From a virus, in the IMG/VR virus record IMGVR_UViG_3300025769_000955, positions 1 through 21,995 of that record: a stretch of DNA of 21,995 bases; one strand, given 5' to 3'. This document shows, piece by piece, positions 1 to 21,995 of the stretch. The notes under the pieces are model-generated. The model saw only the letters and a program-made list of their open reading frames with translations. It did not search any database and was not told the DNA's origin. The position numbers and the translations under genes were made by a program. Each line of letters starts with the position of its first letter. Position 1 is the stretch's first letter.

Positions 1-21
1 CTCATTTTAAGCGAGCATCAA

Positions 22-62
22 CCCCCCAGTGCTAGACTGCTTAGTGGGGGGTATTTTTTTTT
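22..62 (+). terminator. Rho-independent terminator, plus strand
   Basis: A perfect 7-bp GC stem (CCCCCCA at 22-28 with TGGGGGG at 45-51) can extend inward through CTA/TAG. It is followed directly by a T-rich run (52-62). The T-run is on the plus-strand side only, so it ends a plus-strand unit coming from beyond the left edge. The far side of the hairpin is not T-rich, so it is a poor terminator for the leftward late operon. Confidence 0.85.
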
Positions 63-76
63 ATTAACTAAGGATA

Positions 77-133
77 GAACAATAAAAAAGACAATCTGCA
101 CAATAAAAACCCTTAAATCTGCACAATGAAAAC
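77..133. repeat. Phased direct repeats upstream of DnaA-like gene (candidate operator or origin sites)
   Basis: Two near-identical 18-mers lie at 93-110 and 116-133 (AATCTGCACAATAAAAAC and AATCTGCACAATGAAAAC, one mismatch). A partial third copy (GAACAATAAAAAAG) is at 77-90. The shared CAAT cores start at 80, 101 and 124, so spacing is 21 and 23 bp, about two helical turns. The core ATCTGCACA matches the DnaA box TTATNCACA at 6 of 8 fixed positions. The repeats are the only notable content of the gap between the terminator and the gene at 170. Binding by a regulator or by the DnaA-like protein itself is inference. Confidence 0.5.
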
Positions 134-169
134 ACCAATGCCAATAACAATTAAAAAAGAAGGATACAA

Positions 170-508
170 ATGGTCATAGCAGATTACATCATTGAGCACG
201 TAGCCGAAGAAACAGGCATCACTAAAAAATTGATAAAGAGCAAGTATCGGCACCAAGAAATAGTAGATGCGAAGCAAGTTATAGTGTTCGCACTGAGCGA
301 GCTTGGATTTACGCAAAAATTTATTGCGAAACAGTTAAAATACCGAGACCACACCACTGTGAACCACTTAATAAACCGAAGATGCTTCAATTCGCACGAG
401 AATCGCCTGAGAGCCACGCAAGCTGTAAAGGCATACTTAGATATGGCTTTGCTCGTGAACTCTTGTATAAAGCGAGATTTGGAGCGAAAAATTTCTGAGG
501 AGGGCTAA
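170..508 (+). CDS. Stand-alone DnaA domain IV-like DNA-binding protein
   Basis: This 112-residue protein resembles the C-terminal DNA-binding domain of the replication initiator DnaA. The diagnostic part is YRDHTTVNHL at about residues 58-67, which matches the DHTTV signature of the domain IV helix-turn-helix. It is preceded by helical sequence with DAKQVIVFALSELGFTQKFIA, as in DnaA, where a helix with an R/K-x-x-A pattern comes before the recognition helix. No AAA+ ATPase domain is present, so it cannot unwind an origin as DnaA does. In phages such proteins are plausible transcription regulators or replication accessory factors; which applies here is unknown. The ATG has a strong Shine-Dalgarno (GAAGGA, 159-164). 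The next gene starts 3 nt after its stop. DnaA-box-like repeats lie 40-75 bp upstream. Confidence 0.75.
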   Translation: MVIADYIIEHVAEETGITKKLIKSKYRHQEIVDAKQVIVFALSELGFTQKFIAKQLKYRDHTTVNHLINRRCFNSHENRLRATQAVKAYLDMALLVNSCIKRDLERKISEEG

Positions 509-511
509 TTT

Positions 512-724
512 ATGGAGATTATAGCAGTTTTGTCCTTATCTATTACAACTGGCTACATCGGCTACATTTTTGGCTCTAGCATGAAACAAATAGAAGCCTC
601 AGAGAAGTCAATCACTGAGGCATTTAAGGAAGGATACATAAAAGGGTATTTTGATGGACACGCTAATGCCACCAAAAAAGAAAAGCCCTACTTTGAGGAC
701 TTTCCAGAGATGGGTATAAACTAG
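512..724 (+). CDS. Small single-pass membrane protein of unknown function
   Basis: This 70-residue protein begins with a hydrophobic segment (about residues 2-22, rich in I, L, G and Y) long enough to span the inner membrane once. A mostly charged, helical tail follows, containing a GYIKGYFDG motif and an acidic C-terminus. A short N-terminal anchor with a soluble tail is common among small phage early proteins, but I do not recognise the family. It lies 3 nt after the DnaA-like gene, with a Shine-Dalgarno (GAGGAGGG, 496-503) inside the end of that gene, so the two are probably co-transcribed and translationally coupled. Its TAG stop lies in a CTAG shared with the stop of the convergent gene at 721-834. 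Confidence 0.65.
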   Translation: MEIIAVLSLSITTGYIGYIFGSSMKQIEASEKSITEAFKEGYIKGYFDGHANATKKEKPYFEDFPEMGIN

Positions 725-18544: not shown

Positions 18545-19738
18545 TTACGCCTTAGCTACATTACCACGAATGTAACGTCCACCTAAGTCTGGTCGGAATA
18601 CCTTAACTCCGTATAATACTTCGATAAGGATGTCAGCGCCTGACTTGGTTTCTTCTACAGTCAACGTGTAGTTTACGTTGTTCATTGGCTCGAAACCAGC
18701 AGCTCTACGAACGCCTGAACCTGAACCGCTATCCACTGAAGGCATTACAGCAGTTACTAAGGCAAGGGCAGATGGGTCGTAGAAGAACTGCTCACGTCCA
18801 GTGTCACCAGAAGCAATATCAACTGGGTTGATAGTTGCGTTGTTAGCAACAGCTTTACGTAATGGCTCTTTAAGAGTCAATACACTAGCAGTTTGGCTTT
18901 CTACAGTGTAGAAGTCATCAGTGCCTTTAGCGGAACCGAAAGTAACGATGTCACCCTCAGCTAAAGATACAGTTGCAGCACCGCCAGCACCATTGTCAAT
19001 GGTTAACTCAGTTTGCCCGATAGCTTCGTCAGCAGCTAATGTAGCGTTAGTTACTGTAGCAGCAGTGTGGCTAGAACCTTGATTGTCTACGAAGAAGTCG
19101 AAACCATACGCACGAGCCATAGCTCCACCTAACTGAATACCAGCATCTCCACGAGTGTTAGCTTGTTGGAAGATGTTTAGGGTAGTCAAGTCTTTTTCTA
19201 CGAATGGGTCAATAACCATCATTAGGTTATCCGTAGTGAACTTACGAGAAGCCATAATTCTACGAGCTTCTGCAAGGTCATTGTCGTCCATTACAGTAGA
19301 GTCAGTGTTGTTGTCAGCGAAAGCTACTTCAAAAGACTTACGAGCTTCTACTTTTACGTCAGCATTGATCTGGTCAATAAGCTGGTGTAGTCTTGGTACA
19401 AAGTGCTGTTGTACTAAGTCAGGAAGCGCAAACTTTTGGTCAGCTTTGTCGATGCTGAAACCAGTGTAGTAGTGCTTGTTGATGGTTAACGTCTCTTCAC
19501 TAGCATCAGGAGTACCTAGAGAGTAGCTACCTGAGTAAGAGGAAGGAGAGCCAGTAGGCTTTACTGCACGAGTGATATTTACAGACTTGTTACGAGATGC
19601 AACGAGTCCTTCGATAGATGCGCCAGCTACGTTAGTAACGGCTTTGGATACCATTGGTCGGTCTGGATATTGGTTAGCTAGTGCAACCTCAACAAACGCC
19701 TCTGGCTCATAGATGGAAAAATTACTATTAATTGCCAT
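18545..19738 (-). CDS. Major capsid protein, P22 coat-like with inserted domain
   Basis: This 397-residue protein has the architecture of the P22 coat protein (gp5). An N-terminal arm and long helix come first (EAFVEVALANQYPDRPMVSKAV, about 13-34). The body follows (ADVKVEARKSFEVAFA at about 126-141, and TTDNLMMVIDPFVEKDL). Next is an inserted beta-rich domain at about 222-308 (TELTIDNGAGGAATVSLAEGDIVTFGSA), equivalent in position to the P22 I-domain. The C-terminal segment ADILIEVLYGVKVFRPDLGGRYIRG (about 368-392) resembles the P22 ending ALWYGVNATRPEAIGVGL. HK97-fold coat proteins build the icosahedral shell, and the insertion may stabilise the monomer. The gene follows the scaffold gene and is closed by a strong terminator. 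It has no Shine-Dalgarno (TTTATAAAGAC leader). Confidence 0.85.
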   Translation of the reverse strand: MAINSNFSIYEPEAFVEVALANQYPDRPMVSKAVTNVAGASIEGLVASRNKSVNITRAVKPTGSPSSYSGSYSLGTPDASEETLTINKHYYTGFSIDKADQKFALPDLVQQHFVPRLHQLIDQINADVKVEARKSFEVAFADNNTDSTVMDDNDLAEARRIMASRKFTTDNLMMVIDPFVEKDLTTLNIFQQANTRGDAGIQLGGAMARAYGFDFFVDNQGSSHTAATVTNATLAADEAIGQTELTIDNGAGGAATVSLAEGDIVTFGSAKGTDDFYTVESQTASVLTLKEPLRKAVANNATINPVDIASGDTGREQFFYDPSALALVTAVMPSVDSGSGSGVRRAAGFEPMNNVNYTLTVEETKSGADILIEVLYGVKVFRPDLGGRYIRGNVAKA

Positions 19739-19840
19739 GTCTTTATAAAAGTTAAATTAAATGTTGGATTATATTTAGCTTTTGGGTCGCTGTGACCAGA
19801 ACATGACAATTAAGGTTTTGCCTAACCATAAAAGATGGAT
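19739..19840 (-). other. Intergenic leader upstream of the major capsid gene
   Basis: This 102-nt gap separates scaffold and capsid genes. It holds a TATAAT (19773-19768 on the minus strand) with TGGTCA 19 bp upstream, and a short GGTC/GACC hairpin. A capsid-boosting promoter would make sense, but the spacing is poor and Bacteroidota promoters usually look different. I treat it as undetermined. Confidence 0.3.
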
Positions 19841-20578
19841 TTACGCTTGTTCAGCCCAACCGCCTGCAGCTCTAGAAGCAGCAAATAGCTCCTCAGCCTT
19901 AGCACGATCTGCTGGGTTAGTCGAGCGTACAAGTTTTTGAAACTCTGCTCGGCTAGGTCTTTCACTAGAAGGAGTACCACCAGTTGCTCCTCCTGCGCCC
20001 ACTTTCTTGGGCTTCGCAAATTGTTTAGCAAACTCTACTAGAGAGTTGGCTATAGATTTTCTGTTTCCTTGTTGGTCTAGGTCAGGCACACCATTTTTAA
20101 CGGCATAAAACTCACCATTAGACTCTTCAATTTCATATTCATTATAAAACAGTTGCTCGATATAATCAGTCTTTAGTGTTAATTCATTGTCTTGTTGTAA
20201 GGCATTGAACGCACCACTAAACTCGCTGTCGATTCTGTTTTGCATTTGAGTCATTTGTAACTGCTCTTTAGCAGACTCAGCTTCTTGCTGATATTGTTGC
20301 AATAATTCACGCAACTTTTCAGACTCTCCCTTATCCTCTTGTTTAGGAGTTAGAGTTTGCTGAATGCGTGAAAAAGCATCATCTAACGACTCAACTTGAT
20401 CCCCCAGTAATTCAGAGAACTTACTAACAACATCTTTTTCAACCTTGTTTTTTCCTTCGTTGTATGCGCCCCGAAAGAACTTGTCTTTGTCGAACTCTGG
20501 TTGCTGTTGTGTTTGAGAAGTTGTCTCTTCTGTTGTTGACTCAGGAGCGTCAACGGACTCTATGTTTTCTTCACTCAT
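19841..20578 (-). CDS. Scaffolding protein
   Basis: This 245-residue acidic, glutamine-rich, helical protein is encoded between portal and major capsid genes, the usual location of the scaffold. An unstructured acidic N-terminus (about 1-28, SEENIESVDAPESTTEETTS) leads into DKDKFFRGAYNEGKNKVEKD, long coiled-coil segments (about 60-125, LRELLQQYQQEAESAKEQL) and a central region with GAFNALQQDNELTLK. A flexible glycine and serine linker (about 195-207, VGAGGATGG) separates a short helical C-terminus (SRAEFQKLVRSTNPADRAKAEELFAAS), which could be the coat-binding hook as in P22 gp8. It would guide procapsid assembly and leave before packaging. No protease motif is seen. The start lies 16 nt after the portal stop. 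Confidence 0.82.
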   Translation of the reverse strand: MSEENIESVDAPESTTEETTSQTQQQPEFDKDKFFRGAYNEGKNKVEKDVVSKFSELLGDQVESLDDAFSRIQQTLTPKQEDKGESEKLRELLQQYQQEAESAKEQLQMTQMQNRIDSEFSGAFNALQQDNELTLKTDYIEQLFYNEYEIEESNGEFYAVKNGVPDLDQQGNRKSIANSLVEFAKQFAKPKKVGAGGATGGTPSSERPSRAEFQKLVRSTNPADRAKAEELFAASRAAGGWAEQA

Positions 20579-20594
20579 AATAGTTATAAGTTAG

Positions 20595-21995
20595 TTATTG
20601 CTCGCTATTTAAATCAATACCAAGTTCTGCTTGGCGTTGAAGCTCTTCTTGTGGTAATATATCAATAAGATTTTTAAGATCACCACTAGTTTTTGGAATA
20701 CCAAATTCATCGAAGTGTTGCATGACGCTCACTATGTCTTCTTGAGGCATGGATCGCTTTCTCATGTATTCCGCAGTTAGTTTCTTGAGTAGTGGTAAAG
20801 GCAATACGTGATATTGCATACCCTCTGTAATGTCTGAGAATATTTCGGCAGCACTAGACAAGTCATAGTGTTTAGAGTAGGTGACGTGATAATCCGTTGG
20901 GTCTTCGTCACGAACCTTAGCCATTCTTTTCAGTACTTGCATTTCCACCATTTCCATGTCCATAGCCGTAGATGCTAATAGCCCTTGTTCCTCTACATTG
21001 TCGAACCTCTTAGCGGAACCAGATACATTACTTTTAACAATGGACTTATCTCGAACCTGAGCCATAGAAAAGATAAGCGACATCAAATCACCAAAAATTA
21101 CGTCCCTGAGGTGTTGAAGTCCAGACATATCCGCTTGATACAGCATATTGTTGGGTATTTGTTGGTCATCAGGAATAATGATAGCCATACCTACACCCTC
21201 TTTAATCGTGCGAGAGTCGTACTGATCATCATCAGCGACACCAGCTAAAGACCGAACAATGGAATCGGTAAGCACAGGAATAGGGTGACCGAACAACTCA
21301 GAACCTTTCTTTAGGTCATAGAACAACTCTGAGGCTGCAAGGTACATACCCTTTAACGAATATCTACGAGGTTTGCCCACAATGAACGAACTGTTAGCAT
21401 CGGTTTGACCTTTTAACAGGGTAGCTGGAACTTCACCAAACGGATTAGGTATCTCTAATGTCTTTTTCTTGAGTCCGTTTTCTTCTATATACACACAAAT
21501 GTATTCAGGAGTATATGCCGTCCACTTATGCTTCTTAACATTTTGTATGTCATAATACATTTGACGAGTTACAAGCAGTGTTAGTATGCCTTGTTTTACT
21601 TCAAAGTTCCATATCTCGTGCGGTCTAACCACAAAGTTATAAGGAACAACATTACCATTATTGTCGGTTACAGGGCTGCCGTCACCATCCATCATTAGAT
21701 CCGTAACAACCGCACCAAAACCTAACACTTCTTTTACGAATAGAACCTTGTCTCTATAGAACTCAGTAATGGAACAACCAGCATCATCAAAGTTGGATTC
21801 TTTGTACATCCAAAACTCTTTGTTCTCAGGGTAATTTCTATTAACGTTGTTTTCGTCATATATCCGCTGTTGAGCTGAGAAGAATTTTTGCTCCAAAGGA
21901 AACAGTTTCATTCTCCCAAGTCGCTCCCTGTATTCGTCATCACTCTCTATGGTAGACTGAGCAATGATATAGGACTTATCAGAGAATACGGTACT
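20595..21995 (-). CDS. Portal protein, 5' end beyond the window
   Basis: This reading frame stays open past the first in-frame ATG (21911) to the right edge. The extra 28 codons give protein-like sequence (AQSTIESDDEYRERLGR), so the true start lies outside and at least 466 residues are visible. The length, predominantly alpha/beta content and position just before scaffold and capsid genes identify it as the portal, the dodecameric ring through which DNA enters. Recognisable segments are the strand-rich body (PYNFVVRPHEIWNFEVKQGILTLLV), a middle region with GMAIIIPDDQQIPN, and a helical stem-crown region (AEIFSDITEGMQYHVLPLPL, then LKKLTAEYMRKRSMPQEDIV). The C-terminus is acidic (ELGIDLNSEQ). 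The related terminase genes should lie further right. Confidence 0.8.
   Translation of the reverse strand, partial: STVFSDKSYIIAQSTIESDDEYRERLGRMKLFPLEQKFFSAQQRIYDENNVNRNYPENKEFWMYKESNFDDAGCSITEFYRDKVLFVKEVLGFGAVVTDLMMDGDGSPVTDNNGNVVPYNFVVRPHEIWNFEVKQGILTLLVTRQMYYDIQNVKKHKWTAYTPEYICVYIEENGLKKKTLEIPNPFGEVPATLLKGQTDANSSFIVGKPRRYSLKGMYLAASELFYDLKKGSELFGHPIPVLTDSIVRSLAGVADDDQYDSRTIKEGVGMAIIIPDDQQIPNNMLYQADMSGLQHLRDVIFGDLMSLIFSMAQVRDKSIVKSNVSGSAKRFDNVEEQGLLASTAMDMEMVEMQVLKRMAKVRDEDPTDYHVTYSKHYDLSSAAEIFSDITEGMQYHVLPLPLLKKLTAEYMRKRSMPQEDIVSVMQHFDEFGIPKTSGDLKNLIDILPQEELQRQAELGIDLNSEQ

Follow-up and report, generated by a model that had tools for sequence, protein, structure and literature searches.

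What might a phage do with a protein that consists of the DNA-reading domain of the bacterial replication initiator DnaA and little else? The question is raised by a 21,995-base IMG/VR phage fragment, referred to here over its whole length as the window, in which the other long ORFs with family matches lie on the minus strand and make up a virion module (portal, P22-type coat protein and tape measure). A gene at 170-508 on the plus strand encodes a 112-aa protein, here called DnaA-IV, for which Bac_DnaA_C is the sole Pfam match (PF08299, 3.8e-14, residues 5-69), with a score of 52.9 bits against a curated cut-off of 31.5; the NCBIfam DnaA models reach 33.5 bits against a cut-off of 343.9. The AAA+ ATPase domain III and the N-terminal domain of the DnaA initiator are absent from the 112 residues, which comprise domain IV only, and the in-group relatives, from a group of environmental phages, are 112-116 aa long where complete and also without the ATPase domain. 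The original prediction of a stand-alone protein of this length with the DHTTV signature (residues 60-64) and no ATPase domain is therefore correct. Searches of genome contigs with DnaA-IV and with the portal gave no match, and the matches in the phage collection are distant only. The terminase large subunit of some relatives (L023, G006 32,332-34,678) is apparently split over two ORFs, which in G006 flank an extra ORF of HNH/GIY-YIG-like type.

The fold agrees with the family assignment. A PDB search with a profile of 23 relatives retrieves DnaA chains only (the single sequence gives only noise), and the AlphaFold2 model (pLDDT 90.5) matches DnaA domain IV over about 90 residues with Z scores of 12.4 for 1j1v, 12.5 for 3pvp and 13.2 for 1l8q, the last being a structure without box DNA, unlike the box-bound domain IV structures compared; the next unrelated fold has a Z score of 6.3. 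The structural match that had been anticipated is thus found, and in the model the C-terminal helix (73-111) is longer than in DnaA domain IV. The equivalents of E. coli R399, D433, H434 and T436 are invariant among the 23 relatives, down to 32% identity, corresponding in the window's protein to R27 and to D60, H61 and T63 of the D60-H61-T62-T63 stretch (D433-T436). The equivalent of Q408 is kept in 22 of the 23, that of T435 is T or S and that of R407 is K or R, compared with a mean column conservation of 63% for the set. These conserved positions are among the residues by which E. coli DnaA reads its box (PMC5742627, PMC7561715), where R399 and the 434-451 helix read the TTA and TnCACA of the box (PMC5742627). 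Judged from sequence and model, the protein is a genuine DnaA domain IV. In two loci, L154 and L160, the box-contacting D is replaced by N (KNHTT) and exact boxes are absent, possibly reflecting a change in specificity; the L154 promoters carry TCATTCACA and TAATTCACA. Covariation of D-to-N at residue 60 with loss of the exact box was not retained as a rule, as it comprises these two cases only and the D-type loci L002, L101 and L096 are also without an exact box.

The original prediction placed DnaA-box-like sites in a set of repeats just upstream of the gene, and part of this description stands. Two exact 18-bp copies of AATCTGCACAATRAAAAC are present on the plus strand at 93-110 and 116-133, with a spacing of 23 bp, and are the only matches in the window when up to three mismatches are allowed (0.03 expected); each contains ATCTGCACA, a weak likeness to the perfect DnaA box TTATNCACA that agrees with it at six of eight specified positions. 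The supposed partial third copy is an A-rich tail (about 78-90) and unconvincing, and exact TTWTNCACA occurs zero times in the whole window. No promoter is assignable inside the repeat pair, where the distance between TTGACT and a -10-like hexamer is 22 bp instead of 17. The further expectation that related phages would keep the repeats along with the gene fails: relatives keeping DnaA-IV are mostly without them (e.g., L004, L009-L011, L029, L030 and L032), and the pair precedes other genes in the phages G020, G022 and G017. A DnaA-IV gene was not detected in these three, nor do they share the group's replication or capsid genes, except for matches in G022 and G017 that are short or weak. This distribution weakens the case for the repeats as main DnaA-IV operators, and the two ATCTGCACA copies are probably not the sites through which the protein chiefly acts.

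The ATCTGCACA pair is a separate module, preceding accessory genes (MKTPMQ... in G006) and an HTH gene in G020, G022, L056 and L065. The ATGAAAACACCAATGC at the end of the second copy in the window has the appearance of an accessory gene's start fused to the DnaA-IV ribosome-binding site, with its final ATG resembling a start-codon remnant of the MKTPMQ... gene that is intact in G006. Small accessory genes lie between the DnaA-IV promoter and the gene in G006 (L022) at 18,800-20,800, an insertion hot spot, and paralogous MKTPMQ... genes there are preceded by the ATCTGCACA pair. A leader of the form TTGACT-ACAATCTGCACA...TAAAATCTGCACA in L063, L065 and L066 is common to unrelated phages, with a start codon close after the second repeat in a leaderless-like arrangement. 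A secondary role for the repeats is possible, because the first copy in L019-L021 is a full box, TTATGCACA.

The promoter sites of the gene fall outside the window, whose first base lies some 29 bp beyond the actual promoter, on its downstream side. They are visible in relatives and in L002, a near-identical copy (2 mismatches over a 3,287 bp overlap) that reaches 1,345 bp further upstream. The promoter, TTGACT-N17-TAGATT (-35 TTGCAT in L002), sits right where the upstream gene ends, and in relatives a perfect DnaA box abuts the -10 in one orientation (TAGATT followed directly by GTGGATAA) or the other (TAGATT followed directly by TATCCACA or TATACACA), is placed 3 bp further downstream (TAGATT-AAG-TTATGCACA in L156), or sits in the spacer (L168 and L172), with spacer sites also in promoters of the form TTGACT/A-N17-TATACT. 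As position and orientation vary among relatives, the site has turned over while a box was retained. The own-promoter site of L002 is TTATATACA, with one mismatch, and one-mismatch sites occupy the same spot in the exceptions L002, L101, L096, L154 and L160. In L174, DnaA-IV is missing, the promoter and the downstream partner ORF are kept, and the box is degenerate (TTATTTACA), a single case that fits the phage protein as ligand. The partner ORF, which encodes an apparently membrane-anchored protein of 70 aa and lies directly 3′ of DnaA-IV in the window (512-724, plus strand), follows DnaA-IV in relatives and persists in L174 without it.

In part of the group, the window included, a terminator lies between promoter and gene. 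The window has a terminator-like hairpin, CCCCCC...GGGGGG followed by a T-run (21-62, plus strand), recognized from the sequence and from the fold of the L002 leader. That leader (L002:1306-1406, window about -40 to 61) comprises the promoter, two hairpins and the terminator, with a fold z of -3.47, and is a candidate for a short transcript between promoter and DnaA-IV, possibly an attenuator or a small RNA.

A protein-first search, blind to the box, yielded 48 loci; an exact TTATNCACA lies no more than 600 bp upstream in 33 of them and about 2 kb upstream in another, G006, where inserted genes separate the two. The 14 misses comprise 4 in-group loci with one-mismatch or no exact sites, 6 other phages, and 4 loci without an own promoter (L105-L108), as DnaA-IV follows the endolysin gene there. 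A helicase-anchored search, blind to both gene and box, covered 65 loci and 685 kb, and 84 of the 103 exact TTATNCACA in these loci are in promoter-like spans, whereas 100 permuted motifs averaged 1.98 of 36.5 (one control reaching 36). This comparison carries no formal probability, because related loci do not give independent counts and the promoter pattern was chosen once the first cases had been seen. A reversed-pattern control gave 7 hits versus 14, and the raw number of boxes is therefore weak evidence, with their placement carrying the argument.

Both a box at the DnaA-IV gene and a second one elsewhere are present in 20 of the 27 loci that cover both flanks. The near-complete relatives G006, G009, G023 and G024 have exactly two TTATNCACA each, both of the form TTATCCACA and both in promoters, one of them at the DnaA-IV gene. 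The other takes one of two places: the promoter of the leftward replication operon (TTGSAT-N16-TAAATT followed directly by TATCCACA), upstream of the genes for a DUF3799 nuclease and for the DnaB-type helicase, or the spacer of a consensus opposite-arm promoter (TTGACA-N17-TATACT), the latter being the arrangement of a second subgroup. In many relatives this second box is near the O-type initiator gene. The opposite-arm site is kept in L105-L108; a second exact box in these loci is within a coding region and was excluded from the operators. For the window, the second site falls outside the record.

The placement of the boxes suggests how the protein could function. Repressors act at positions such as those of the boxes, over the -10/start region or within the spacer, and the good -35 and -10 elements need no activator, for which reason a repressor is favored. 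We consider it probable, with real room for doubt, that DnaA-IV is an autoregulated repressor with DnaA boxes as operators at its own promoter and usually at one early promoter. Such a small phage transcription regulator, composed of DnaA domain IV and a C-terminal helix, would bind its own promoter at boxes that cover the -10/start region or lie between the -35 and -10 elements. In most relatives it would also bind one more early promoter, which drives either the replication operon or the opposite arm next to the O-type initiator gene. The bound protein would block RNA polymerase and thereby repress, and the outcome would be a negatively autoregulated brake on early and replication genes. The autoregulatory circuit of the original prediction would then survive in outline, acting via perfect promoter boxes and not via the repeats. 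Beyond the computed family, fold, conservation of DNA-reading residues and promoter placement and retention of boxes in relatives, the repressor reading supposes that the phage protein, and not only host DnaA, binds the boxes, that binding represses, and that the one-mismatch box of the window's lineage (TTATATACA in L002) still works. Several points count against it: host DnaA should recognize the same sequence, the window's lineage is without an exact box at its own promoter, the terminator separates promoter from gene in part of the group, a single 9-bp site suits binding as a monomer, and G035 (L096/L176) keeps the contact residues, yet has no exact box in 12.5 kb.

The main rival, rather unlikely, is that host DnaA is itself the main ligand. 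The boxes in early promoters would then sense the replication state of the host, and DnaA-IV would lift or reset control by host DnaA, either in competition with it or as an anti-repressor. The boxes have the canonical host consensus, TTATCCACA, and E. coli DnaA uses boxes to repress its own promoter as well as others (PMC5835720) and acts at lambda promoters and ori-lambda (PMC8203912, PMC3985674), but box and gene travel together in the group, the sole gene-missing locus has a degenerate box, and near-complete relatives have only about two boxes. DnaA-IV could also be a decoy of the host initiator, the two proteins contesting the same boxes such that one protein represses phage early promoters and blocks host oriC; this is unlikely but, if true, would tie the replication programme of the phage to the DnaA level of its host. 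A takeover of the host, in which DnaA-IV occupies the boxes of host oriC and dnaA and stops host initiation while the phage boxes just limit its own expression, is consistent with the retained box-reading residues and with known phage and prophage proteins that inhibit DnaA (lambda P, YfdR; PMC4776307). However, takeover alone leaves the second box of the phage, in the replication or opposite-arm promoter, unaccounted for, and we regard this reading as very unlikely.

Recruitment of RNA polymerase by DnaA-IV to early or lysis promoters has a precedent in GafY, a DnaA domain IV homologue that activates GTA promoters and contacts sigma-70 (PMC9632790, PMC11150451), but appears highly improbable here, where the boxes overlap the -10/+1 or the spacer of promoters whose near-consensus -35 and -10 need no activator; GafY binding is far upstream of a degenerate -35. 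A phage origin using DnaA, at the repeats or at the boxes, which the original prediction had raised, is scarcely credible. The position of the second box near the O-type initiator gene in many relatives would favor it, but the boxes are single and within promoters, near-complete relatives have an O-type initiator and a DnaB-type helicase of their own, and the repeats also occur in unrelated phages. The clustered boxes and unwinding element of a DnaA-dependent origin were not found, with zero exact boxes in the window and mostly isolated single boxes in relatives, and the origin was rejected for lack of a box array and the presence of a phage-encoded initiator.

The repressor reading has several counterparts among known systems. 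GafY, the GTA activator of Caulobacter crescentus, is the nearest characterized relative, and a phage regulator of the DnaA-IV type is already a known kind. Like DnaA-IV, GafY and the N-terminal domain of Rhodobacter capsulatus GafA, which is DnaA-like (PMC9638019), are small phage-derived regulators with a DnaA domain IV-like DNA-binding domain, and GafY and GafA bind their own promoter and others (PMC9632790, PMC11150451, PMC9638019). GafY differs in that it is an activator that works with IHF and binds far upstream, the papers not describing its sites as DnaA boxes, whereas the putative sites of the phage protein are canonical boxes overlapping the promoter core, and GafA has E at the R399 position, whereas phage DnaA-IV keeps R399 and DHTT. 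The GafZ/GafA C-terminal partner carries DUF6456, and the 70-aa ORF next to DnaA-IV is without a Pfam match. Autoregulation at E. coli dnaA and mioC is similar in that domain IV acts on promoter DnaA boxes in negative autoregulation (PMC5835720), as is predicted for the phage case, but the phage-encoded protein is without an AAA+ domain or ATP switch and no initiator function is expected of it. Host DnaA at lambda pR/pO and ori-lambda likewise involves boxes near phage early and replication promoters (PMC3985674, PMC8203912), although the host protein acts there and no domain IV is encoded by the phage. Lambda P, YfdR and B. subtilis SirA share a possible effect on host DnaA function, but they bind the DnaA protein, and none of them is a DnaA domain IV (PMC4776307). 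The open-licence papers searched yielded no description of such a phage DnaA-IV/box regulator. What would be new relative to these systems is the combination of intact box-reading residues with canonical boxes, placed as putative operators where a repressor would act, and with a regulon of about two sites. A replication-initiator domain would have been taken over as a phage transcription regulator with the host DNA code kept, the operator and the host regulatory site being the same sequence, and because the regulon is so small, at about two sites per genome, direct tests of binding, of repression and of competition with the host protein are feasible.
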